Notes under the pieces: generated by a model | Databases searched by the model: none | Told to the model about the DNA's origin: nothing | Seen by the model: the letters and a program-made list of their open reading frames with translations, nothing else | Shown: in pieces, positions 3,115 through 27,534 of the stretch | How the letters are laid out: each line of letters starts with the position of its first letter | Position numbering within the stretch: the first letter of the stretch is position 1 | Position numbers and translations under genes: made by a program | Assembly (NCBI GenBank): GCA_947630235.1 | Contig: CANRGN010000009.1 | Location: 1 to 64,000 of the forward strand | DNA from: an uncultured Clostridia bacterium | Lineage (GTDB): Bacteria; Bacillota; Clostridia; TANB77; CAG-508 | Reading direction: 5' to 3' | DNA length: 64,000 bases

Positions 3115-4667
3115 TTTTCGAATTTCATTTTGATTATATTTTTTGAAGAACTAAAAGAAAATTAGAAAAGATTTTTTATCATTAAATTTTTATAAATTAA
3201 AAAAAAATAAGGAAATTAGATTTTTATTTTTAAAGAATGAAATAAAAATTAAATTTTATTTAATTAATAATAAGAATTTAAGTATATAGTTAGAAAAAAT
3301 TTTATAGTAGAAGTATTAAAAAAGTTTTATAAAAGAAGAAAAATATATATTAAATTTTTAATCTTTAAAATGTGAATAAATAACAAGATAGAAGATTTTG
3401 AATTTTCAAATTTTATATTATCATTAACAATTTTTTAGAGAAAAAATAATATAAGTAGAAGCTTTTTGTTTTGAAAAGGAGAATATGGTAGAGAAATTTT
3501 ACTCCCAAAAAAATTATAATTTAAAATTTTATATTATATTATTTTAGAGAAAAAAATTATTTTGATTTGAAAAAATATAATAAGAGCAGATTTAAAATTT
3601 AAAGAATAAAATAAAACTTCAAATTAATAGAAATTGAATTATTATAATTTTATTAGAAGAAAATAGTAGAAAAATGCTAGATAAAAAATTTTTATAAAGA
3701 AAGTAAATTATAAAAAATTAGTTTTATGATTTTAAAATTGTGAATAAAATTATAAATAAAATAGTAAGAAAAAATATTTAAAATTTTCGAATCGTATATT
3801 GATCGGATTTTTTGAAAAAAGGGAAGATAGGATAGAGAAAAAATTTTAGCGATTTAATTTTTTCAAATTATTTTTTAGTTTAAAATTATATAATATATTA
3901 TTTTAGAGAAAAAAATAATAAAAATAAAAGCACTTTGGGGGGTAAAAAAACAAAAATAATGAAAATGTAGATTTTTGAATTTTTAAAAAAGAAAATTTAA
4001 TATAAAAAATAGGAAGAAAAAATATAATTTTTTCTTGGGAAATAAATATAATAAAATACGAAAAAATGTTTTGATAAAAGATTGCTTTTTTGAAAAAATA
4101 TTTGTTATTTTTCTAAAATAAATTGTAAAAAGATAAGTAAAAAATGGTAAGAAACAATAAAAAGTTTTCAAAAAATATTATTGTTCTGTTAAAAAAATTT
4201 AAATGATAATATTCGATTTTATAAAATTTGAAAATCAGTTTTTTTATTAAACAGTTTTTTTAAATTTGGTTTAATAGAATTTAAAAAAATAGTTTTGGAG
4301 TATGGAAGTCAAAGATTATATAAAAAAATGTAGAGATTTTTGATAAATTGCAAGAATAAATATTGAATTATTATCATTTTTTTGCTTTAGAAAGTATAAT
4401 TTTATATAAATTTGGATGTACATTTTTTATTTCTATTTTTTGTATATTTTAATTTTTATTATAAAAAATTTTTATTTTTAATTTAATAGTGAACATAAAA
4501 TAGCCGTTATAATTATTCATACAAAAGTATATGTTAATTTATATTAAAAAAATAAAATATAAATATATAAAAATATAAATCAGTTTTTGAAAAGTTTTAA
4601 AATTTGCGATATATATTAAATAATAAAATATTAAATCTCTAAATTAAGAATAAATAATATTTATAAA
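3115..4667. repeat. AT-rich tandem repeat, unit 3 (3' end diverged)
   Basis: Third unit, close to units 1 and 2 until about 4490 and then increasingly diverged. The internal motif is at 3784. A 62-codon minus-strand reading frame at 3983-4171 exists only because a T-run is one base shorter here than in units 1 and 2, so I do not call it a gene. Confidence 0.85.
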
Positions 4668-5072: not shown

Positions 5073-5982
5073 AAAAAGTAGAAGCATTTTACTTTAAAAA
5101 AATATAATAAGAGAGAGAATTTTAAAAATTTAAATAATAAAATAAAACTTCAATTTAATAATTAATAGGCTTCTAATTATTATAATATAATAAAAAAGTT
5201 TAGTAGAAAAAAGCAGGAAAAAGATTTTATAAAGGAAGTAAAATATAAAAAAATTAATTTTTTGATTTCAAAATTGTGAATAAAAATATAAATAAATAGT
5301 AAGAAAAAATATTTAAAATTTTCGAATTGTATATTGATCGTTTTTTTTGAAAAAAGGAAAGATCGGATATAGAAAATTTTTTAGCAATTTAATTTTTTCA
5401 AATTATTTTTTAGTTTAAAATTTTATAATATATTATTTTAGAGAAAAAAATAATAAAAGTAAAAGCATTTTGCTTTGTTAAAAAACAAAAATAATGAAAA
5501 AGTAGATTTTTTAGTTTTTGAATAAGAGAATTTAATATAAAAAATAGGAAGAAAAAATATAATTTTTTCTTGGGAAATAAATATAATAAAATGCGAAAAA
5601 ATGTTTTTATAAAAACTTGCTTTTTTGAAAAAATATTTGCTTTTTTTCTAAAATAAATTGTAAAAAAATAAGTAAAAAATGGTAAGAAACAATAAAAATT
5701 TTTCAAAAAATATTATTGTTCTGTTAAAAAAATTTAAATGATAATATTCGATTTTATAAAATTTGAAAATAATCTTTTTATAAATCTATTTTTTTAAAAT
5801 TTGGTTTAATAGAATTAAAAAAAATAGTTTTGAAGTATAGAATACAAAGATTATAAAAAAAATTAAATTGATTTTGATAAATTGCAAGAATAAATATAAA
5901 ATTTTGAAAGTTTTTTGTAGTTGCAAAATTTTGAATTTACGAATATAATTCAATAAAGATTTGAAATTTTTGTGGTGATGTT

Positions 5983-7035
5983 ATGGGTAATAAAATTGAT
6001 GAAAAAAATGAGATTTCTAGCAATATTATTTCTGAAAATATAGATAATACCAAAAATGAAATTAAAAAACTCACTAGAAAAACAAAAGATAAAAAAATAA
6101 AAAGGTTAAATGAAGAATATGATAAAGCTATAGATAAAGCAGATAAAATAAAAGATGAAATTATAGAACGTTTAGAAAAAAATGCAAGAAAAGCTGAAAA
6201 AAAATCTATAACAATATGTGGCGTTAAAATATGGGAAATAATGTCGTATTTAGTTATTTATAGTTTTCTGGGTTTTTGCTTAGAAACAGTTTATGGATTA
6301 TTAACGAAAGGTGTTATTGAAAGTAGACAAAGTTTTTTATATGGCCCTTTTTGTGGAATTTATGGATTAGGCGCTACTATAATGATATTACTTCTTCAAT
6401 ATTTTAAAAAAAATAATTATACTTTATTTTTGGGTGGTTATATAATTGGTTCAGTTATAGAATACTTCGTTAGTTTATTTGGCGAAATGATTCTGAATGT
6501 TAAGTGGTGGGATTATTCAAATCAACCTTTTAATATAAATGGAAGAGTATGTTTATTTTATTCAATTGCATGGGGAATAATTGCTATTTATTTAATTGGC
6601 CATTTTAATCCAATAGTAGATAATTTGATATATAAATTTAAGAAGAAATTGCCAAAGTATTTGTTGCCGGTTGTTTTCGATATTTTTACATTTTTACTTT
6701 TAGTTGATTGTATTATTTCTGGAATAGCTGTAAATGTTTTTTATTGTAGATTAGTATATGAAAATGATTTAAACATAAAAAATGCTCAAGTATACAAACA
6801 AGAATATGAGGACATATTAAGTAATGATTTTTGGAGAGATTTTACATTAAAACACTTTTCTAATGAAAAAATGTTAAAAACATATCCTAACTTAAAATTT
6901 GAAGATATAGATGGAAATATTATTTTTGCAAAAGACTATTTAAAAGATATAAAACCATATTATTTAAAATTATTTACTCCAAAAAATGATTCTAATAAAT
7001 TAGTAAAAGTTGAAGATGTAAATTATGAAGAATGA
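5983..7035 (+). CDS. CmpB-type (PF06541) multi-pass membrane protein
   Basis: This 350-residue protein has a charged, Lys/Glu-rich, probably coiled N-terminal region (about residues 1-75) followed by a hydrophobic block of several membrane segments (about 85-260). The block begins WEIMSYLVIYSFLGF and contains YGPFCGIYGLGA and VKWWDYSNQPFNINGRVCL. These are hallmarks of the family annotated as putative ABC transporter permease (CmpB, formerly DUF1113). No ATPase or binding protein lies nearby, so transport activity is unproven and the substrate unknown. The C-terminal 90 residues are soluble and not recognised. The ATG at 5983 is preceded by a weak GGTGATG. It is a single-gene unit converging on the next gene across a shared terminator. 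Confidence 0.8.
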   Translation: MGNKIDEKNEISSNIISENIDNTKNEIKKLTRKTKDKKIKRLNEEYDKAIDKADKIKDEIIERLEKNARKAEKKSITICGVKIWEIMSYLVIYSFLGFCLETVYGLLTKGVIESRQSFLYGPFCGIYGLGATIMILLLQYFKKNNYTLFLGGYIIGSVIEYFVSLFGEMILNVKWWDYSNQPFNINGRVCLFYSIAWGIIAIYLIGHFNPIVDNLIYKFKKKLPKYLLPVVFDIFTFLLLVDCIISGIAVNVFYCRLVYENDLNIKNAQVYKQEYEDILSNDFWRDFTLKHFSNEKMLKTYPNLKFEDIDGNIIFAKDYLKDIKPYYLKLFTPKNDSNKLVKVEDVNYEE

Positions 7036-11732: not shown

Positions 11733-12284
11733 ATGAAGAGAATAATGATTTTAGTTGTAATTATGATTACTATGATTGCTATTTTTACATATTTAGTTGT
11801 AGTAAATAGCGAGCCAGCTCCTAAAGAATTAGTGCCAGAAGCAGAAATTCAAGATAAGGATCTTAGAAATACAATAATAACTTTGTATTTTGAAAATTCA
11901 GAGAATGGAGAAGTTCAAACAGAGGCAAGACTTATTGATTCAAAAGACTTGTTAAATGATCCATATTCTTATTTGGTTAATTTATTAATAGAAGGACCTA
12001 AAAATGCTGGATTAAGAAAAAATATACCAGAAGGTACAAAATTAAATAGTTCTACTTTAATAGGAGAATGTTTGACTTTAGATTTTTCAAAAGAATTTAT
12101 TGATAATGCCAAAGGAGATGCTTTGCAAAAAAGTAATATAATTTATTCAATAATAAATACAGTAACAGAATTAAAAGAAGTTTCTAGAGTTAAAATTTTA
12201 GTTGATGGAGAAGAAAGCAATGGATTTGAAGATGTGGGGATTGGGTTTAAAGATGAATTTGTTAGGAAAAATATAAACACATAG
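11733..12284 (+). CDS. GerM (GerMN) domain sporulation/germination protein
   Basis: A 183-residue protein with an N-terminal membrane anchor or uncleaved signal (about residues 3-24) and an extracytoplasmic GerMN domain. Supporting motifs are DPYSYLVNLLIEGPKNAGL, IPEGTKLNSSTL and LTLDFSKEFIDN. In Bacillus, GerM acts in engulfment and spore germination at the septum/outer-forespore-membrane interface; here one GerMN domain is present rather than two. It has a good AAGAAAGGA Shine-Dalgarno site and stands alone. The region downstream is occupied by two large hairpin elements. Confidence 0.85.
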   Translation: MKRIMILVVIMITMIAIFTYLVVVNSEPAPKELVPEAEIQDKDLRNTIITLYFENSENGEVQTEARLIDSKDLLNDPYSYLVNLLIEGPKNAGLRKNIPEGTKLNSSTLIGECLTLDFSKEFIDNAKGDALQKSNIIYSIINTVTELKEVSRVKILVDGEESNGFEDVGIGFKDEFVRKNINT

Positions 12285-12296
12285 CTTTTTATATGA

Positions 12297-12378
12297 TTAG
12301 ATGTAAAAGTAATTTTGCAGAAGAAATGGAACGTAACAGAAAAGTAGAAGGAGTTATAGTATATCATATAAAAGTTTA
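12297..12378 (+). pseudogene. possible C-terminal remnant of a short gene
   Basis: An ATG-started frame reads MIRCKSNFAEEMERNRKVEG and ends in VYHIKV and TAA exactly at the inner end of the left hairpin arm. The composition looks coding-like, but there is no Shine-Dalgarno site and nothing recognisable. The right arm of hairpin element 1 is a perfect inverted copy of its last 45 bp. It could be chance. Confidence 0.25.
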
Positions 12379-12545
12379 ACTCGTTCAAGGGATACATTTA
12401 AGAGTTTCTAAAACGTCACGCGGAGCCCTCTTTCTGTTATAAACGAACATCCCTCCGCAATCCATGTTAAGAAACTCTAAAATGTACCCTTTCAATTCAT
12501 TAAACTTTTATATGATATACTATAACTCCTTCTACTTTTCTGTTA
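12334..12545. ncRNA. large hairpin element 1 (45-bp perfect stem, conserved core)
   Basis: The left arm (12334-12378) and right arm (12501-12545) are perfect reverse complements over 45 bp. Inside is an internal loop (CTCGTTCA against TTCAATTC), then an 11-bp stem with one bulge (AGGG + TACATTT), then AGAGTTTCT / AGAAACTCT closing a GC-richer core of about 60 bp (12410-12469). The same architecture recurs in inverted orientation in element 2 with different stem sequences but the same loop and core. It may be a structured RNA, an invertible DNA segment or a mobile hairpin. The type assigned is provisional. Confidence 0.55.
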
Positions 12546-12610
12546 CTACTCTATAAAAATAATTTCATTTTTATTTCTGTTATTACTCTATAAAAACAAT
12601 TTATTTTTAC
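12546..12610. repeat. short direct repeat between the two hairpins
   Basis: CTGTTACTACTCTATAAAAA and CTGTTATTACTCTATAAAAA (from 12540 and 12576) are near-identical copies bridging the two hairpin elements. Function unknown. Confidence 0.6.
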
Positions 12611-12616
12611 AACAGA

Positions 12617-12828
12617 ATAATTTAAGAGGAGAAGGTGATATTGTATCTATTTGAAAAATCAGCGAATTGAAAGAGAATATTCTAGAGTTTCTTAACATGG
12701 AGTGCGGAGGGATGTTCGTTTATAACAGAAAGAGGGCTTCGCCGTGACGTTTAGAAACTCTTGAATATTGCTCTTGAACGAGATGATTTTTCAAATAGAT
12801 ACAATATCACCTTCTCCTCTTAAATTAT
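12617..12828. ncRNA. large hairpin element 2 (core inverted relative to element 1)
   Basis: The arms at 12617-12661 and 12784-12828 are perfect reverse complements over 45 bp and differ in sequence from the arms of element 1. The core, read on the minus strand, matches element 1 nearly base for base (AACGAACATCCCTCCGCA, CCCTCTTTCTGTTAT). The inner 11-bp stem is AGAG + AATATTC against AGGG + TACATTT in element 1, so pairing is kept while sequence changes. The bulge and the CTCGTTCA / TTCAATTC loop are conserved. Confidence 0.55.
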
Positions 12829-12879
12829 GGACTTATGTCTTTTTCAAATTTCTTTTTATAAAAAAATTCTTACAAACTA

Positions 12880-12906
12880 CAGAAAGTACAGAAAGTACAG
12901 AAAGTT
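12880..12906. repeat. three tandem copies of a 9-mer
   Basis: ACAGAAAGT is repeated three times in direct tandem just upstream of the trmN6 promoter. It is a possible slippage site or binding site; nothing more can be said. Confidence 0.7.
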
Positions 12907-12969: not shown

Positions 12970-13707
12970 ATGGAGCTAAAAAATAATGAAAGAATTGATG
13001 ATTTAGAATATGAGAATTTAAAAATAATTCAAAATAAAGAGGGATTTTGTTTTGGCATAGATTCTATATTATTATCAGATTTTGCCAAAAATATAAAACC
13101 AAAATCAAAAGTTGTAGATATAGGTACTGGTACAGGGATAATTTCTATTTTGCTTTCAAAAAAAACTAATGCTCAAAAGATTTTTGGAGTAGAAATTCAA
13201 GAAGAGGTTGCAGATATGGCAAAAAGAAGTGTTAAACTAAATAATCTTGAAGATAAAATAGAAATTATAAATGATGATATTAAAAATATAAATAAATATT
13301 TACCTAATAATTCTATAGATGTAATAGTTACAAATCCTCCATATAAAAAATTGGATTCAGGAATAAAAAATGAAAATCAAAAATTATTAATTTCAAGACA
13401 TGAAATTGCTTGTAATTTGCAAAATATAGCAGAAATTAGTCGAAAATTGTTAAAAGATAAAGGAGAAATTTTCCTTGTGCATAAGTCAGAAAGACTTGTG
13501 GATATCTTAACTACTTTTAGACAAGAAAAATTAGAAGTAAAACTTATACGTTTTGTTCAATCTACTCAAAATAGTAGTCCAAACTTGGTTTTAATAAAAG
13601 CTGTGAAAAATGGTGGAGAATTTTTAAAGATTGAAAAGCCATTAATTATTTATAAAGAAAATGGTAAGTATAGTGATGAGATTTTAGAAATATATAATAA
13701 GAATTAG
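12970..13707 (+). CDS. trmN6: tRNA1(Val) (adenine(37)-N6)-methyltransferase
   Basis: A 245-residue Rossmann-fold SAM-dependent methyltransferase. The SAM-binding motif VVDIGTGTGIISI is near residue 44 and the adenine-N6 catalytic motif NPPYKK near 121. The opening GFCFGIDSILLSDF is typical of the TrmN6/YfiC-YabB group, which methylates A37 of tRNA-Val in E. coli. The target tRNA is inferred from family membership. TAAAGGAAAT precedes the start. rsmI follows 67 bp downstream in the same direction, the usual Firmicutes pairing. Confidence 0.88.
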   Translation: MELKNNERIDDLEYENLKIIQNKEGFCFGIDSILLSDFAKNIKPKSKVVDIGTGTGIISILLSKKTNAQKIFGVEIQEEVADMAKRSVKLNNLEDKIEIINDDIKNINKYLPNNSIDVIVTNPPYKKLDSGIKNENQKLLISRHEIACNLQNIAEISRKLLKDKGEIFLVHKSERLVDILTTFRQEKLEVKLIRFVQSTQNSSPNLVLIKAVKNGGEFLKIEKPLIIYKENGKYSDEILEIYNKN

Positions 13708-18441: not shown

Positions 18442-21400
18442 ATGTGGCAAAAGAAAGAGCTATTAAAAAGAGTAGTTACCATATTATTAATCATTATAAT
18501 GTGTTTAGAGTCAACGTTTTCTTATGCTACTATTAGTTCAAGTATAAAAACAGAATCACAAAATGTAAATAATGATGTTTTGGTAGAAGATTCAAATACT
18601 ATTCCTATGAATAATATTTTTGATGAATTAGAACTTGATGATGAAAATAAAAGTAGCGATAAAGAGTCTCAAAATATAATTGACCAGGAATTAACTGTGC
18701 CTAACGATTCGGAAGAAAATAATCCTCAAAATAATCAGTCTGTGGGTGTTGATAATTCTCAAGAAAAGATTGATGAAAATTCTGATAATGAAAATCAAAA
18801 TGAAATTCCTAATAATCCAGAGACTATAGATAATGCCAAAGTTGAAGAAGACTCATTAAATGATGAACAAAATATTGTGGCAGAATCAGAAGAAACAAAA
18901 GAGAATTTTGAGATTCCTGCATTAGAAGCATCTACTGAATTAGAAAAAGATTCAATAGCATTTGAGATTTCTGAAAATCAAGATGTTAGTACTCCGTTTA
19001 AAGCAATGATGCAATCTGCTACATCTCCGTTAGATGATTCAGGTTTTCAAATTGCACTTAGATTTCCTAGTTCAAGTACGTCAACATATTCTTGGAATGC
19101 TCAAAAAAATGAGGATGCTACTATAAAATTAGCTTTTTATTATCAAAATCAAAAAGATTCAAAAGGGTATGAGCCTAATCAATTAGTAGTTACAATTCCA
19201 GGAATAGGAGCGTTAAATAGAAATTCGGCTTTAAAAGCTGTAGATATAGCAGCAGATACATATACTAGTAGTACTAAAAAAAGAGATTGGTCATATAAAT
19301 ATGATTCTAGTACAGACACATATACATTTTATAATAATAAGAAAATTGAACCAGGGGAATTGTTTAATGGTTCTTTTGAAATAATATGGCAATTTAATTC
19401 AAGAAATTGTGTTAATGGATACACAAAAGAAATTCAAGCAACATTGTTTGATGGAAAAAATACAATATTATCTAAACCATTAAATTTAGAATTTACTTCT
19501 GAAAAAGATACATTTAGTATACAAAAAACAGCAAAATCTATAGTAAGTGCTGATGGTTTAGGTAATTTTGTTCCTGAGGGAAAAACAGCAAAAGATTATG
19601 CATGGATTTCATATAGCTTTACATATAATGTAAACACAGTAAATTCTAGAGGCTTAAAAGATAGATATATGATAGATACTTTTCCAAAAGACTGTATAGT
19701 TGTTTCTGATAATAAAATCACTAATTCTGATGGAACAATAAGTTATAAAGTGCAAGAATCTTCGGTTTATATTGATCCGGATAATCCAAATAATAGTAGA
19801 AGAGTTGAATCTGTACTTGTTGGATATCCAGAAGAAAATGTAGGCAGTAAAATAAAAAATACAGTTAAACTATATGGAACATATTTTGAAGAAAATGAAG
19901 TATCAGAATTAGCAAGTAGTTCGATAGATGTAGATTTAATCAAGATAGAAGAGGGAACTTTTGGAGTAGTACCAGGAAAATATATGTCGCCTGATTATAT
20001 TTATAATGATTCTATTCCAGATATAATATCGTTTTCTGCAAATCTTTATGCAACATCAAAAGCTAAAGGTGAGGAAGAATATACTTTAGTGATAGCAGAT
20101 GATTTATTGGAAATTTATACAGATCAATATTATACATTAACAGATGATCAATATTGTTTTAATAATGTTACAATACCAGGAATGGAATCATTTTATAATG
20201 CTAATGGATATAAAATAACAGATGGAGATTATAATGTAAAAGTATTTGCATTGGAAAAAGGAAAAGTTAAGTCTAGAAATTTGAGTGAATATGAACAGTG
20301 CTATACAGGAAAATGGGCAAAATATTCTACGCCAGTAGAGTTACCAGATGAAACAGTTGCAATTAGAGTAGAAATTAGTGGATTGAAAGAAAGTATAAAT
20401 AATTTTTATGTATCAACAAGTGGAGAGATTTATTTAGAAGAATCTGGATATGAGAATCCTAGTTTTATAAAAAATTATGATTATACAGACATTTTAGTAA
20501 AAGATCCAGAATCGGAATCAGAAATGAAATCTATATTGCCAGAACTTACAGAAAAGAATTCCTCAGATGAAAGAATATATAATAGAGATATTGAGATTTA
20601 TGGAAAATTAGTTTATAGATCAAGTGATACAATTCAGTTTAAGGATAGGACTATACAACCAGTTACAAGATATTATAATTCAAAAGTAGAAATGGAAAAT
20701 TTTGAGATGGATGAAAGTCTAGAGAATTTTGAAACTCTTGTAACTCATAGTATTTCAGTAGAAAATGATGACTTAAAAGAATTAAAAAATATAGAAATAC
20801 ATGGCGTTTGTGAAAGCAAAGAATTAAAACAAATCTTAGATAATTTTGAATTAGTTTATTCTAATTTAAAATTTAAAAAAGAATTACCTGCAGAAACAGA
20901 TTTAAAAGATTATTTAATGGAAAGATTAGATATAGAACAACGTAATATTGGAGATACAATTGAATTAGATGATACTACTTCAACTGTAACAAAGTCTGAA
21001 ATTATAATGAAATTTGATTTTTCAAATAATCCTATTATAGCTAATAATTTTACTCTAGGCTTTAAAGTAAAAGTAAAATTAAGTTATGATGATTATTATA
21101 TTTCTAGAAATCCAGTTTATTCAACATCAACATATGGTTATGTAAATGAAGGTGGAATAGTTCCAAGAAATAGTGCAAATCATGATAGTAAGTTAATGTC
21201 GCATAATAGTACTAGAAAAAGTATTTTATTAGCTTTAGCATCACATCAACAGATGATAAAAAGTGTAAAAACAGAGTATACTACAGATTTTATTCAAGAA
21301 AATGCTGTTCAGTCAATGAATAGTCAATATACATATAGATTAAAATTAAGAAATGGTTATAATACTCTTATGAATACAGAAATTGTTGATTTTTTAGAAC

Positions 21401-24400
21401 AATCAGAAGTGATTGATGAATTTGGTGAAAAAAAGAAATCTGAATGGTCTGGTATTTTTCAATCAGTAGATACAAGTAATATTGCAAATCAAAATTTACC
21501 AGTAACAGTGTATTATTCTACCAGTTTAGCTCCAATTGAAACCGACTGGGTTCAATTAGAAAAGCAAGAAAATAATATTTGGACTACTGAAAATAAAAAT
21601 GTTAAAGCAATTAAAGTTGATATAAACGGAGATATTCTAGAAAATGCAATTATATATGCAGATATAAATATGCTATCTCCTAATGATGATTCATTAGAAG
21701 ATAAAAAAACATATAATCAATATTCTATAAGCTGTGATTCTATAGACTTATATACAGGAGTTTTAACTAAATATATGGAGGATTTACCAAGTAATACAAC
21801 TGGTGTAAAATTGGTAAAAAGAGAATATAATTTAGAAATATTAAAAACAGATGAAATAACACATAGTAAATTAGTAGGTGCTTTTTTTGGTTTATATCTT
21901 GGAGAAGAAAGAATAAGAGGAAATATAACAGATATTTTAGGAAAAACAACTTTGAGAGGTATAAAAGCAGGTACATATACATTAAAAGAAGATATTGTTC
22001 CAGTAGGATATAAAAAATTAGAAGACATGACATTAGAAATAGGAGATTTAAAATATAGTTTAAAAATAGGGGAAAAAATTATATCAGAAGGAGATGTTGA
22101 TGTAACAGGTGGTACACCAACTGTAAAATTAAATATTGTAAATGAAAGAGCAAAAAGAAAAATAAAAATCTTAAAATTAGATGAATATAATACTCCTATA
22201 GATAATGAGCCAATTCCATTAGCAAATGTAGAGTTTCAACTTATAAATGAATCTGATGAAGTAATTCAAACAAAGCAAACAAATGAATCTGGAGAAATTA
22301 CATTTGATGAAGTAGATTGGGGACAGTTTTATAGATTAAAAGAAACTCCAATTCAAGGATATGAACCTTTAGAGAAAAGTATATATCTAAATAAATCTAG
22401 TGATGAGTATAGTATAACACTAAAAAATATAAGGAAAAAAGGTACAGCAGTTCTTATAAAAAAAGATGAAGTAGATGAAACTAGAATAGAAGGTGCTGAA
22501 TATGCTGTATATGCTAGAAATCCAATATATAATACTGAAGGAGAAATAAAATATAATTCAGGTGATTTAGTTGAAAAAGCTGTAACAAATGAAAATGGTG
22601 AAGCTATTTTTGAAGGCTTAGATTGGGGAGAATACTATATTAAAGAAACTCAAACTGTTTATGGATATGAATTATCTGAAAAAGAATATAATTTTTATGT
22701 TGGTTTAGATAATGTTGAAGAAAGAATTGAATTAACAGAAAAAGAAGTTAGAAGTAAAGCTAAGTTACAAGTTATAAAAGTTGATGAAAATGGTAGATTT
22801 TTACAAAATGTAGAATTTGGGCTTTATGATGAAGATGGTTATGCAGTTAGGAAAAATGTAAAAAGAATAAATGAAAAATTAGATTTAAAATTTAATAGCG
22901 TTGGAGAATATGGTTGGATACAGAATGAAGATGGCGTTTGGCAGAGTGATATTAAAGAGCTACATGGAAAAACAGCTGTTATGGAATCTAATGAATTTGA
23001 GATAGAAGAAACAGGAAATTTGGTAATTGATTGGAGTGTATCTTCAGAATCTGTATTGTTTGATTATTTATATTATACTATAACAAATACAGAAACTAAT
23101 GAAATAATTGATGGACAAAGTAAAAAGATTGGTGGAACAAGTTATGGAACACAATATAATTCTTTAAATTTTGTACAAGAGTGGGAAGAACTAGTTCCAG
23201 GTAAATATAAGTTGAATTTTTATTATAAGAAAGACGGAAGTAGAAATAGTGGATTAGATGCAGGATTTGTAAAAGGTATAAGTTTTTCTAAAACAGAACT
23301 TGGAGAAGTAAATAAAGGTATAACAGATGAAAATGGAGTGCTAAGATTAGATGATATTGATTGGGGAACTTATTATATTCAAGAAATAAAATCAGTTACA
23401 GGATATGAAAAAATTGATACTAAATTTAAATTTGTAGTAGATAGAGAAACTTTTGCTAATAATAATGATACAGTAATGAGAATAATCAATGAAGATACTG
23501 GTGAGGAAACCTCTGTAATAACAAATAGTAGAAAAAAAGGAAAAGTAACTCTAACGAAATATGCATATGATGCAGAAGGAAATGAAACAGATAAAGTATT
23601 ACCAGGTGCTGTATATGAATTGTATTTAGCTGATGGAACATTATTAGGAGAATATACAACAAATGAAAACGGAAAGATTGAAGTAGACAAATTAGAATGG
23701 AATAGTTACTATTTTCAGGAAAAAGAAGCTCCAAAAGGATATGCTGTTTCTGATAAAAGAATAGCTTTTGTAGTGAATATAAAGAATGCTGATTTTGAAG
23801 TAGAATTAAAGGCTTATGATAAGGTAGAGGCAGGAGAAATAATAATAAATAAAGTGATAAATAAAGATAGTATTTTTTCTGCACATGGAAATTCAAGTTT
23901 TATATTTAAAGTTTTAGGAAAAAGTGGTGAAGAAGAAAAAGTAACTTTATATAGAACAATTACTTTTTCAGAATCAGATATAAAAAATGCAGATAAAGAT
24001 GGTAATATAAAGAAAACAATAAAAATTGCAGATGTAGATTCATATAAATATGAAATTACAGAAGAAGAAAACTATCGTTATGAGCAAACTAATATAATTC
24101 TTGGAGAAAATGCTAGAGTAGAAAATAATATAGGAGTAATTGATTTAAGTGGTTTGGAAAGTAAAAAAGGTGAGATTACTTTTGAAAATACAAAACAAAG
24201 TAATAATTTATTAACCGATAATAAATTATTAACCAATTCTACTCAAAGTCAATATTATTTAATTGGAATTAGTGCAACAACTAAAAAGGAAAGTTATGAA
24301 ATTCAAAAAGATGTTTTAACAGCAAAAGATTTTGATTATGTTTTATATTATTCTGGAGGTCAAGAATTTTCAGTAGAATTAAGTGAAGGAATAACCATAA

Positions 24401-27400
24401 ATGGAAAAGATTCTTATAAAGAAGAATTAGAGGGAGATTATATTGTAAGCATAACTTATACAGTAAATGGAAAAAAATATGATACTTATGCTACTGTAAA
24501 TTGGAAAACACCAAGTGATTACTATTTAACTGTTCCAAATGATGATGGTGCAATTACTATAATAGGTGTAAATTCTAATTATACTTCACCTGAAATTTTG
24601 TATATTCCTAGAGTGTATAATGAATTACCTGTAACTCGATTAGGAAATGGAAAATTATTATCTAATATAGGTAACGTAAAAACTGTTCAGGTAGAAAAAG
24701 GAATAGAGACTATAGGAGCGAGTGCATTTAGTAATTGTGATAATATAATAAATGTTGATTTACCAAAATCATTAAAATCATTAGGAAGTAATGCATTTTA
24801 TGATTGTGATAAATTAGGAAGTATTAATTTAAGCAAAACAGAATTAGAAAAAATAGAATATCGTACATTTTATAGTTGTGGAGCATTGAAAAAAGTAGAT
24901 TTTCCAAATACATTAACATATATTGGAACAGAAGCATTTTACGATTGCGATGGTATAAGTTCTATTGATTTGAGTCAAACTCATCTAGATAATATAGATA
25001 CACAAGCTTTTTATACTTGTGGTAGTTTAACTACAGTTACATTACCTAATGGAATAATAACTAATATTGGTAATTCAGCTTTTTATGATTGTGTAGCTCT
25101 AAAGACTATAAATTTAACTGATAGTTTAACTAATATAGGAACTTCAGCATTTTATAATTGTAAAAGTTTAATGGCAGTAAATTTAACGGAAACGTTAACT
25201 AGTATAGGAACATTGGCATTTTATAATTGTGATGGTTTAACAAGTATAGATTGGCCACAAAGTGTAAGTGTGATACCAGAATCTATATTCAAAGAATGTA
25301 ATAATTTGAAAACAGTTAATATACCAGAAACAGTGACAAATATAAATAATTCAGCATTTTATAATTGTACAAGTTTAACTACAATAAATTTATCAGAAAA
25401 TATAACTAATATAGGAACATATGCATTTTATAATTGTGATGGCTTAACAAGTATAGAGTGGCCAAGAAGTGTAAGTGTGATACAAGATTCTACATTTAGA
25501 GAATGTAGTAATTTGAAAACAGTTAATATACCTGAAACAGTAACTAGCATAGGAACATCAGCATTTTATAATTGTGATGAGTTAACAAGTGTATATTTGC
25601 CAGCAAATATAAATGTAATACAAAATTATACGTTTTATGATTGTAATAAATTAATTACTGTTGATATACCAGACAGTATAACGAGTATAGGAGAAAAAGC
25701 TTTTTATAATGACTATAATATTAAAGGAATAAATTGGGCAAAATCATTAGTAAGTATAGGAGCTTATGCATTTTATAATTGTGATGGTTTAACAAGTATA
25801 GAATTACCAGAAGGAGTAACTACTATAGGAAATTACGCATTTCAAAGTTGTTCAAAAGTAACTAATATAGATTTACCATCTACAATAACCAGTATAGGTA
25901 CAGGAGCTTTTTATGGATGTTTATATCTAGAGAAAATGAATTGGCCAGATGGAGTAACTGAAATATTAAGTTCAGCATTTTATGATTGTTCAAGGTTAAC
26001 TTCTATTGAGATACCAGAAACTGTAACTAGTATAGGAGCATCAGCATTTTATGGTTGTACAAGTTTAATTAATATAAATTTACCAAAATCATTAAAAAGT
26101 ATAGGAAGTTCAGCATTTTATAATTGTAAAAATTTATCTAAAATTACATGGCCATCATCAGTAGTAAGTATTGCAGATAATACTTTCTATAATTGTAGTA
26201 GTTTAATAACTTTTGATGTGCCAGCAACTGTTACAAGTATTTCTAATACAGCTTTTAATGGTTGTAGCAGTATGGAAAGTATAAAAGTTGAAGAAGATAA
26301 TACAAAATATAGTAGTACTGAAGATGGAGTTCTTTATGATAAAGAGCAAACTAAAATAATAAGATATCCTCAAGGAAAAAAAGATGTGAAATCATATACA
26401 ATATTAAATACAGCAAAATCAATTGATAATTATGCATTTTATGGATGTAATATACTAGAAAAGATTGACTGGGCAGAGGATATAACTAATATAGGAACAT
26501 ATGCATTTTATAATTGTACTAATTTAAATAGTATTATTTTACCAGAGACAATAACTAATATAGGAATATATGCTTTTTATAATTGTAGTTCAATAACAGA
26601 GGTAACTTGGCCTTCGAGTGTGGCAACTATAGGAGATTATACTTTTTATGGATGTAGTCAATTAACAGTGATAGAATTACCACAAGGTATAGAAAAATTA
26701 GGAACGTATGTATTTTATAATTGTGACAATTTAATCAATATAAATCTACCAGAAACTATAACCAGTATAGGCTCATATGCATTTAGCTCTTGTAATAATT
26801 TGATAGAAATAGAATGGCCTTCAAAGGTAACAAGTATAAGTGGAGATGTTTTTTATAATTGTACAAGTTTAGAAAGAATACAATTACCAGAAACTTTAAC
26901 AAGTATAGGAACAGAGGCATTTAGAAGTTGTTCAAGTATGCAAAGTATATATATTCCATCAACAGTAAAAACTATAGGTTCATATGCCTTTTATGGTTGT
27001 AGTAAGTTGGAAAGTATAGATTTAAGCAATACACTAATAACATCAATACCAGATAGGACTTTTTATAATTGTACAGCTTTAACAAATATAACTTTACCAT
27101 CTACAGTGACAAGCATAGGATCATATGCATTTTACTCTTGTAAAGGATTACAAAATATAGATTTTAGTCAAATAAAGATAACATCGATAGGCTATAATGC
27201 ATTTCAATATTGTACAAATTTAAAAAATATACAATTACCAGAAACATTATCTACTTTAAGAGAAGATGCTTTTAATGGATGTACTAATTTGGAAAATATA
27301 GACTTAAGTAAAACTAAAATAACTAAGATATATTATAATACTTTCTATAATTGTACTAATCTTTTAAGCATAGATATATCTTCAAAAATAACAACCATAG

Positions 27401-27534
27401 AAAGCAAAGCCTTCTATAATTGTAATAAATTAAAAACAATAAATTATTATGGAACAATGGAGCAGTTTAATAATATTTCAGTAAATTCAACAGAAAATAC
27501 AGCATTTAAAAATGCAAATGTTCAATGTAAATAA
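18442..27534 (+). CDS. giant SpaA/BspA leucine-rich-repeat surface adhesin
   Basis: A 3030-residue secreted protein. The signal peptide (about 1-30) is followed by an Asp/Glu/Asn-rich low-complexity linker (about 35-180) and beta-rich stalk regions. At least five SpaA/Cna-B-like prealbumin domains follow at about 1132, 1236, 1333, 1440 (interrupted by a beta-sandwich insertion) and 1696, recognisable by xVxKxD...GAxFxLY...G.Y.L.E...P.GY. From about 2083 to the end there are roughly 40 BspA-type repeats of about 23 residues (IGTSAFYNCDGLTSI, LPETVTSIG). SpaA domains usually carry self-made isopeptide bonds, and BspA repeats in other species bind host or bacterial partners. No LPxTG, TM or dockerin is seen at the C-terminus, so retention at the surface is unexplained. 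GGAGGGAG precedes the ATG. Confidence 0.9.
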   Translation: MWQKKELLKRVVTILLIIIMCLESTFSYATISSSIKTESQNVNNDVLVEDSNTIPMNNIFDELELDDENKSSDKESQNIIDQELTVPNDSEENNPQNNQSVGVDNSQEKIDENSDNENQNEIPNNPETIDNAKVEEDSLNDEQNIVAESEETKENFEIPALEASTELEKDSIAFEISENQDVSTPFKAMMQSATSPLDDSGFQIALRFPSSSTSTYSWNAQKNEDATIKLAFYYQNQKDSKGYEPNQLVVTIPGIGALNRNSALKAVDIAADTYTSSTKKRDWSYKYDSSTDTYTFYNNKKIEPGELFNGSFEIIWQFNSRNCVNGYTKEIQATLFDGKNTILSKPLNLEFTSEKDTFSIQKTAKSIVSADGLGNFVPEGKTAKDYAWISYSFTYNVNTVNSRGLKDRYMIDTFPKDCIVVSDNKITNSDGTISYKVQESSVYIDPDNPNNSRRVESVLVGYPEENVGSKIKNTVKLYGTYFEENEVSELASSSIDVDLIKIEEGTFGVVPGKYMSPDYIYNDSIPDIISFSANLYATSKAKGEEEYTLVIADDLLEIYTDQYYTLTDDQYCFNNVTIPGMESFYNANGYKITDGDYNVKVFALEKGKVKSRNLSEYEQCYTGKWAKYSTPVELPDETVAIRVEISGLKESINNFYVSTSGEIYLEESGYENPSFIKNYDYTDILVKDPESESEMKSILPELTEKNSSDERIYNRDIEIYGKLVYRSSDTIQFKDRTIQPVTRYYNSKVEMENFEMDESLENFETLVTHSISVENDDLKELKNIEIHGVCESKELKQILDNFELVYSNLKFKKELPAETDLKDYLMERLDIEQRNIGDTIELDDTTSTVTKSEIIMKFDFSNNPIIANNFTLGFKVKVKLSYDDYYISRNPVYSTSTYGYVNEGGIVPRNSANHDSKLMSHNSTRKSILLALASHQQMIKSVKTEYTTDFIQENAVQSMNSQYTYRLKLRNGYNTLMNTEIVDFLEQSEVIDEFGEKKKSEWSGIFQSVDTSNIANQNLPVTVYYSTSLAPIETDWVQLEKQENNIWTTENKNVKAIKVDINGDILENAIIYADINMLSPNDDSLEDKKTYNQYSISCDSIDLYTGVLTKYMEDLPSNTTGVKLVKREYNLEILKTDEITHSKLVGAFFGLYLGEERIRGNITDILGKTTLRGIKAGTYTLKEDIVPVGYKKLEDMTLEIGDLKYSLKIGEKIISEGDVDVTGGTPTVKLNIVNERAKRKIKILKLDEYNTPIDNEPIPLANVEFQLINESDEVIQTKQTNESGEITFDEVDWGQFYRLKETPIQGYEPLEKSIYLNKSSDEYSITLKNIRKKGTAVLIKKDEVDETRIEGAEYAVYARNPIYNTEGEIKYNSGDLVEKAVTNENGEAIFEGLDWGEYYIKETQTVYGYELSEKEYNFYVGLDNVEERIELTEKEVRSKAKLQVIKVDENGRFLQNVEFGLYDEDGYAVRKNVKRINEKLDLKFNSVGEYGWIQNEDGVWQSDIKELHGKTAVMESNEFEIEETGNLVIDWSVSSESVLFDYLYYTITNTETNEIIDGQSKKIGGTSYGTQYNSLNFVQEWEELVPGKYKLNFYYKKDGSRNSGLDAGFVKGISFSKTELGEVNKGITDENGVLRLDDIDWGTYYIQEIKSVTGYEKIDTKFKFVVDRETFANNNDTVMRIINEDTGEETSVITNSRKKGKVTLTKYAYDAEGNETDKVLPGAVYELYLADGTLLGEYTTNENGKIEVDKLEWNSYYFQEKEAPKGYAVSDKRIAFVVNIKNADFEVELKAYDKVEAGEIIINKVINKDSIFSAHGNSSFIFKVLGKSGEEEKVTLYRTITFSESDIKNADKDGNIKKTIKIADVDSYKYEITEEENYRYEQTNIILGENARVENNIGVIDLSGLESKKGEITFENTKQSNNLLTDNKLLTNSTQSQYYLIGISATTKKESYEIQKDVLTAKDFDYVLYYSGGQEFSVELSEGITINGKDSYKEELEGDYIVSITYTVNGKKYDTYATVNWKTPSDYYLTVPNDDGAITIIGVNSNYTSPEILYIPRVYNELPVTRLGNGKLLSNIGNVKTVQVEKGIETIGASAFSNCDNIINVDLPKSLKSLGSNAFYDCDKLGSINLSKTELEKIEYRTFYSCGALKKVDFPNTLTYIGTEAFYDCDGISSIDLSQTHLDNIDTQAFYTCGSLTTVTLPNGIITNIGNSAFYDCVALKTINLTDSLTNIGTSAFYNCKSLMAVNLTETLTSIGTLAFYNCDGLTSIDWPQSVSVIPESIFKECNNLKTVNIPETVTNINNSAFYNCTSLTTINLSENITNIGTYAFYNCDGLTSIEWPRSVSVIQDSTFRECSNLKTVNIPETVTSIGTSAFYNCDELTSVYLPANINVIQNYTFYDCNKLITVDIPDSITSIGEKAFYNDYNIKGINWAKSLVSIGAYAFYNCDGLTSIELPEGVTTIGNYAFQSCSKVTNIDLPSTITSIGTGAFYGCLYLEKMNWPDGVTEILSSAFYDCSRLTSIEIPETVTSIGASAFYGCTSLININLPKSLKSIGSSAFYNCKNLSKITWPSSVVSIADNTFYNCSSLITFDVPATVTSISNTAFNGCSSMESIKVEEDNTKYSSTEDGVLYDKEQTKIIRYPQGKKDVKSYTILNTAKSIDNYAFYGCNILEKIDWAEDITNIGTYAFYNCTNLNSIILPETITNIGIYAFYNCSSITEVTWPSSVATIGDYTFYGCSQLTVIELPQGIEKLGTYVFYNCDNLININLPETITSIGSYAFSSCNNLIEIEWPSKVTSISGDVFYNCTSLERIQLPETLTSIGTEAFRSCSSMQSIYIPSTVKTIGSYAFYGCSKLESIDLSNTLITSIPDRTFYNCTALTNITLPSTVTSIGSYAFYSCKGLQNIDFSQIKITSIGYNAFQYCTNLKNIQLPETLSTLREDAFNGCTNLENIDLSKTKITKIYYNTFYNCTNLLSIDISSKITTIESKAFYNCNKLKTINYYGTMEQFNNISVNSTENTAFKNANVQCK

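Follow-up and report, generated by a model that had tools for sequence, protein, structure and literature searches.

Twin long hairpins in an uncultured gut Clostridia genome as probable members of a dispersed family with a conserved, invertible apical core

Our results lead us to favor, with somewhat better than even confidence, the reading that the twin hairpins found in the window (the whole 64,000-nucleotide stretch of DNA from an uncultured Clostridia bacterium that was analysed) represent two copies of a mobile, non-coding hairpin family that is specific to a lineage of uncultured gut Clostridia, in which the arms have been homogenised and the core has been flipped. The family has many intergenic copies in which an apical core is conserved and the arms diverge but remain complementary, and orthologous copies often differ in the direction of the core. 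Some orthologous sites have no copy, and at several sites the relatives carry another hairpin, either terminator-like or belonging to another core family. The hairpin family is real, widespread, and apparently undescribed; literature searches returned no earlier description of it.

The two hairpins occupy the gap between a gene with a Germane domain (11733-12284) and a methyltransferase gene of the small-domain type (12970-13707). Hairpin A spans 12333-12546 (214 bp, 47-bp perfect arms), and hairpin B spans 12617-12828 (212 bp, 45-bp perfect arms that differ in sequence from those of A). The original prediction, made from the sequence of this locus, had placed here two adjacent elements, each closed by perfect arms of its own sequence, and both were recovered; the dimensions that it gave for each, 212 bp with 45-bp arms, fit B and fall slightly short for A. 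The two cores (~120 bp each) are alike, their inner 75 bp being near-identical, and they lie in opposite orientations, with the apical motif GGGATGTTC..GAAAGAGG on the minus strand in A and on the plus strand in B (Table 1). The opposite orientation had been correctly anticipated, whereas the shared core had been put at about 60 bp and is nearer 75 bp. Also as described beforehand, the internal loop CTCGTTCA/TTTCAATTC of A has a counterpart in B, and the inner stem changes from AGGG-a-TACATTT to AGAG-c-AATATTC between A and B with both pairing and bulge maintained. Folded as single strands, A reaches -106.1 kcal/mol (z -20.5) and B reaches -97.8 kcal/mol (z -17.0), values equalled by 0 of 200 shuffles in either case. 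Elsewhere in the window, a 9-bp unit, ACAGAAAGT, occurs three times in tandem at 12874-12905, just downstream of hairpin B, and an ORF of 3030 aa at 18442-27534 contains repeats that resemble, by eye, surface-protein and leucine-rich repeats.

Table 1. Coordinates of the twin hairpins and of other hairpins and palindromes observed.
Feature	Position	Strand	Remarks
Left arm, hairpin A	12333..12379	.	47 bp, perfect inverted repeat with 12500-12546
Internal loop in core of hairpin A	CTCGTTCA 12380-12387; TTTCAATTC 12490-12498		
Conserved core, hairpin A	12380..12499	-	Inner stems and apical type II motif GGGATGTTC..GAAAGAGG (minus, 12427-12453)
Right arm, hairpin A	12500..12546	.	
Outer flank of A	12298..12332	.	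Diverged form of TAAAAG..TTTGAAAAAGACATGGAGCC, a flank repeated outside other A and B copies
AT-rich spacer separating A and B	12547..12616	.	Contains repeated flank motif TACTCTATAAAAA (12547-12559)
Left arm, hairpin B	12617..12661	.	45 bp, perfect inverted repeat with 12784-12828
Conserved core, hairpin B	12662..12783	+	Orientation opposite to A; apical type II motif on plus strand, 12709-12735
Right arm, hairpin B	12784..12828	.	
Outer flank of B	12829..12862	.	GGACTTATGTCTTTTTCAAATTTC.., same repeated flank as that of A, inverted
X1 copies	L230:1471-1653; L140:5857-6029; L131:3120-3285; L162:6335-6497		
X2 copies	L210:3449-3601; L159:1904-2053, 3845-3988, 5951-6095; L229:4966-5214; L377; L383; L384		
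TTGGGGACGG-like palindromes	L193:2666-2818; L207:5511-5618; L145:5720-5842; L220:5075-5181; L216:3372-3445; L223:2707-2844		

Within the window's own genome, a DNA search with a 561-bp query returned 56 matches, and a covariance model of the core (R1) identified 14 full cores on their own strand (E <= 9e-17), the remaining matches being the same cores read on the other strand and one weak match in contig C15. Because six contigs (C7, C18, C28, C70, C79, and C86) start or stop within or next to copies, the true copy number is probably higher than 14. These copies have at least four arm types (A, B, C, and D), and solo arms occur as well; the flank motif TACTCTATAAAAA of the spacer also adjoins copies of types A, C, and D elsewhere in the genome. 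The tail-to-tail twin arrangement recurs on C7 (B then A), and a second twin pair, with arms quite different from those of A and B, lies on C20. At one contig end (L033:642-848), a hairpin joins the left half of a type A element to the reversed right end of a type B element, as expected of a deletion between the AGAAACTCT words of a twin.

Beyond this genome, the family is visible only through covariance models and a pattern search. Rfam release 15 gave no matches up to E 1 for the window region and 17 related loci, blastn against phages and plasmids gave none, and the window's apical motif, scanned for as an exact string, turned up in neither viral contigs nor genome contigs. The statement that the elements belong to no recognised family thus holds for the searches made, which covered Rfam, phages, plasmids, and viral contigs. 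Within the genus, R1 matched related hairpins at E 0.01 in 13 of 53 genomes, some of the matches being chance; two of its matches, L104 and L123, look coding, carry no motif, and were taken as chance. The hairpins found by R1 revealed a second apical motif, GGCACCCTTCCA-hairpin-TGAACTCTTTCC, here called type I, the window's own being type II. Genome contigs carry the type I pattern in at least 114 stretches and viral contigs in none, and 80 sources among the matches listed are all uncultured Clostridia, Clostridium, or Clostridiales. A second model, R2, was built from 42 sequences. In the order, 100 of 238 genomes matched it, and 98 of these belong to the same bacterial family as the window; across the class, the count was 6 of 341, every one from that family again. 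The covariance-model search that the original prediction had proposed therefore shows that the core is by no means confined to this locus.

Fuller scoring of candidates in five genomes gave 28, 36, 26, 16, and 14 matches, a few of which are a single hairpin read on both strands. The exact type II pattern was present in 6 of 238 genomes (reversed control, 0), and four of the five newly examined type II matches sit within long hairpins. One of the type II copies (L389, at ~143213 of G080:C1) is closed by ~62 consecutive base pairs, an extreme perfect palindrome for a bacterial chromosome. Two further candidates were set aside: L392, whose fold is a plain hairpin, and a 31-bp match in G033, which sits in what by eye is a helicase gene and was taken as chance. 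The 94 copies flanked by genes on either side all avoid ORFs longer than 400 bp, and their orientation relative to the neighboring genes is mixed (35, 28, 19, and 12 in the four classes). Coding read-through of the left arms, suggested by eye from an in-frame 'VIVYH..PGINLRV', was rejected, as the frame breaks between copies.

The pattern of conservation within these elements is that of a constant apex on drifting arms. Over the 42 sequences, the asymmetric internal loops of the core are kept, with the strands GGAAAGAGTTCA / TGGAAGGGTGCC near-invariant, and 92.3% of the cells in the core stems are paired, with changes on both sides at 22 of the 26 core pairs. None of 500 shuffles came as high, and slid controls reached at most 58% pairing. 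Outside the core, the arms have no sequence common across the family, yet they are complementary over tens of bp, and 131 doubly compensated pairs across 28 element pairs show arms that are homogenised within a copy and different between copies. Adjacent doubly compensated pairs numbered 18, versus 6.6 expected if they were scattered, and 102 of 119 runs of doubly changed pairs consist of one position, a degree of clustering that is below the prediction of a pure template-switch origin. Since the asymmetric loops survive across genera, selection seems to act on the apical core.

Comparison of orthologous sites revealed inversions of this core. Among 31 orthologous pairs with both flanks clearly matched (34 'partial' pairs and one self-match, L233, were omitted), the core had the same orientation in 19 and was inverted in 12, and the inversions fall in 7 of 18 separate loci. 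Flank identity among the inverted pairs ranges from ~68 to 99.6%. In the closest cases, the core is flipped between flanks that are 99.6 and 98.1% identical (L163 versus L189) or 96.1 and 99.3% identical (L198 versus L347). An invertible element homogenised by recombination, one of the possibilities raised by the original prediction, is thereby well supported in relatives, where cores are flipped against matching flanks, some of them more than 96% identical on both sides. Confusion of k-mers during assembly is an unlikely source of these inversions, because the longest perfect arm run in the ten inverted pairs checked was only 11-35 bp.

The gain of copies was read from sites at only some of which insertion was told apart from deletion. 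In other species of the genus, the gap between the two genes that border the window's twin contained no family hairpin at L281, L285, L288, L300, L302, and L304. Three relatives, G167, G607, and G608, have many copies in common and others that are not. At 16 of 20 non-orthologous loci in this clade, the repeated unit is enclosed by an outer palindrome that scores no lower than the 99th percentile of 1291 random points; measured against 1021 gene ends, each scanned at 12 positions, 15 of 20 reach the 95th percentile or more. Some homology exists between the outer palindromes of separate loci, 29 of 171 pairs exceeding the 99% control, so that the outer arms of several loci are diverged relatives and not all are independent. 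We accordingly softened an initial reading of them as wholly independent target hairpins, as a group of loci have common diverged outer arms, and some outer palindromes may be old arms instead of target hairpins. The sites that lack a copy are varied. Where L360 is absent, the site has nothing but a hairpin of ~20 bp in G607 and a related one in G167, over the stop codon of the upstream gene; at the L326 site, G607 has an 8-bp palindrome and G608 an unrelated hairpin core, X2; and at the L349 site, both relatives have X2 hairpins. The empty L361 site has no palindrome in two relatives and a terminator-like hairpin in the more distant G235, and the relative of L365 has the same hairpin with its apex deleted. 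Target duplications are possible at L175 (TA) and L361 (AAAG), most empty sites being too diverged.

Other hairpins were also observed (Table 1). Family X1 has a core of ACTGCGTAAGCGACCAAACGA..GTGCGATTGGAGCAAC and locus-specific, near-perfect arms of 20-42 bp, and family X2 has the core TTAAGGTGGGGACCGACAAGTTTACAAACTG, locus-specific arms, and positions in relatives that are orthologous to those of type I copies. Long near-perfect palindromes with TTGGGGACGG-like words have stems that are unlike at every locus. Five type I hairpins (L230, L231, L152, L204, and L207) have outer arms in which the internal-loop motif of type II appears, oriented the other way, a picture that resembles one hairpin sitting inside the apex of another.

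Matched changes of this kind could reflect selection on an RNA, in which case halfway changes should favor G.U over A.C on the transcribed strand. Isolated mismatches were first counted on the GGAAAGAG strand of 93 type I hairpins, with 18 G.U versus 1 A.C in the inner stem and 29 versus 16 in the outer arms, which leaves room for RNA-level selection. With a stricter flank rule and 111 hairpins, the counts were 5 versus 2 in the inner stem and 26 versus 17 in the arms; pairwise comparison of the arms in 28 element pairs gave 96 versus 85 (p 0.46), and 18 orthologous pairs gave 26 versus 16. Five of the latter 18 had been aligned in the sense of the core despite inverted flanks; the low flank identities there are an artefact of that alignment, and the inverted flanks exposed core inversions. 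The clear RNA strand suggested by the first count was given up, as the stricter and pairwise counts did not support it in the arms. Taken together, the mismatch counts yield no firm RNA signal in the arms and a weak one in the inner stem. The compensatory variation that had originally been offered as strong evidence of a selected fold is therefore weaker than stated where RNA is concerned, because template switching also yields arm homogenisation and loop inversion; selection on the apical core itself seems real.

One alternative is that the elements encode one or more structured non-coding RNAs whose fold is selected, with core loops that bind a protein and long arms that protect or present those loops, read from the GGAAAGAGUUCA-hairpin-UGGAAGGGUGCC strand in type I or the GAGGGAUGUUC..GAAAGAGG strand in type II. 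The strong covariation of the core, its conserved asymmetric purine-rich internal loops, and the G.U lean of inner-stem mismatches in one count all accord with such an RNA, but its arms should then have an excess of G.U, which the pairwise comparison does not show, and its orientation is mixed relative to genes and flips between close relatives. Near the window copies, promoters resembling sigma-70 were at chance level (4 found versus 4.4 expected) and no terminator-like site was seen. Together with the lack of an Rfam match and the presence of many copies per genome, yet none found in many relatives, these observations make an RNA function an unlikely primary explanation.

It is somewhat harder still to regard the hairpins as classical MITEs, that is, as non-autonomous DNA transposons whose long arms are terminal inverted repeats recognised by a DDE transposase. 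That the window genome has dispersed copies bearing long inverted repeats, that the TATATAATAGGAAAC..GTTTCCTATTATATA sequences look by eye like common ends in one genome, and that copies are absent at some orthologous sites would all fit. Terminal inverted repeats are, however, shared within a subfamily and not between subfamilies, so that the ends differ and the apical core is conserved, the reverse of a MITE; no consistent target duplication can be read, and inspection of the ORFs next to the window genome's C20, C16, and C11 copies, and of those between the paired copies in L214, revealed no transposase. Nor do two other candidate mobilising enzymes significantly separate high-copy from no-match genomes: Y1 transposases (PF01797) were found in 15 of 20 versus 11 of 20 (p 0.32) and reverse transcriptases (PF00078), such as a retron or a related element would need, in 15 of 20 versus 12 of 20 (p 0.50), and neither has a match in the window genome. 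A dedicated phase-variation switch, in which a site-specific recombinase would flip each core and thereby control neighboring genes, might be suspected from the inversions at 7 of the 18 orthologous loci, but we consider it very improbable: crossover would have to take place in the arms, which have no family-wide sequence in common that could serve as a recombinase site, the genes next to the examined copies are varied and ordinary, and the window copies have no promoter beyond chance.

Returning to a mobile family of homogenised, flipping hairpins, a possible mechanism can be outlined. New copies would settle into the loops of hairpins already present at gene ends, which we infer and which is the least certain step. 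The settled palindrome could then be a hot spot for template switching, in which a polymerase that switches between the arms would copy one arm onto the other, a homogenisation seen as covariation, and the same switching would flip the loop. The asymmetric loops of the core may be retained because something recognises them, probably the enzyme that spreads them. A bolder extension, which we advance only as a speculation and think improbable, is that these elements represent a new class of genomic parasite inhabiting hairpin loops, whose compact apical cores (types I, II, X1, and X2) jump into the loops of terminators or other hairpins and take each other's place at shared sites; template switching during replication would spread and flip them, and its guides would be the asymmetric loops of the cores instead of transposase-recognised ends. 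If it is true that cores colonise hairpin loops without shared ends, this would be an unusual mode of repeat spread.

The family also bears on how covariation is interpreted, since compensatory changes are routinely taken to show that an RNA fold is functional. Its long stems, dozens in a genome, combine plentiful compensation with cores inverted between close relatives and with little or no RNA-strand bias in the arms, so that it can show how much covariation DNA-level processes generate alone. It could also mislead covariation-based RNA discovery in these genomes, and it offers a natural way to ask if a working RNA must lie behind every set of matched stem changes.

Among known systems, the hairpins most readily invite comparison with REP/REPIN and ERIC sequences and with the dispersed stem-loop repeats that form the bacterial stem-loop families of Cozzuto et al. 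2008 (PMC2267715), which are likewise short, intergenic, multicopy, palindromic, and non-coding, some being thought to be miniature mobile elements. Those families are known by sequence shared along the copy, whereas here the common part is the apical core alone and arm sequences vary. REPs are 20-40 bp long (PMC3733652) and linked to Y1 transposases; the present unit, of ~200 bp or more with a conserved core of 75-120 bp, does not conform to a 20-40 bp palindrome with a GTAG or CGTC head, and REP/REPIN need a REP-associated Y1 transposase (RAYT), which the window genome lacks. Quasipalindromes that undergo template switching, as treated in the relevant sections of PMC8604942 and PMC8794818 and also in part of PMC7202029, exhibit arm homogenisation, inversion of the loop (spacer) between inverted repeats, and compensatory changes through polymerase switching between arms. 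The hairpin family displays the same homogenisation within copies and loop inversion between arms (12 of 31), but the inversions in those sections concern loops of a few bases, whereas here cores of ~120 bp or more flip, and do so in a dispersed repeat family. Like MITEs and palindrome-targeting insertion sequences, exemplified by IS elements within REPs (PMC1525189), the hairpins are dispersed, non-autonomous, missing at some orthologous sites, and sited at palindromes. They differ from both in having no family-wide conserved ends, no clear target duplication, and no matching transposase found. Integron attC sites are also hairpins that keep certain unpaired bases constant and let their complementary arms vary freely, a likeness that extends to the present family, with the difference that its conserved parts lie at the apex rather than at the ends and that no cassette arrays were seen here. 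The hairpin family belongs, then, with the dispersed bacterial stem-loop repeats, among which it is unusual for its conservation at the apex and not at the ends, for arms that are free to drift in concert, and for a core that flips.
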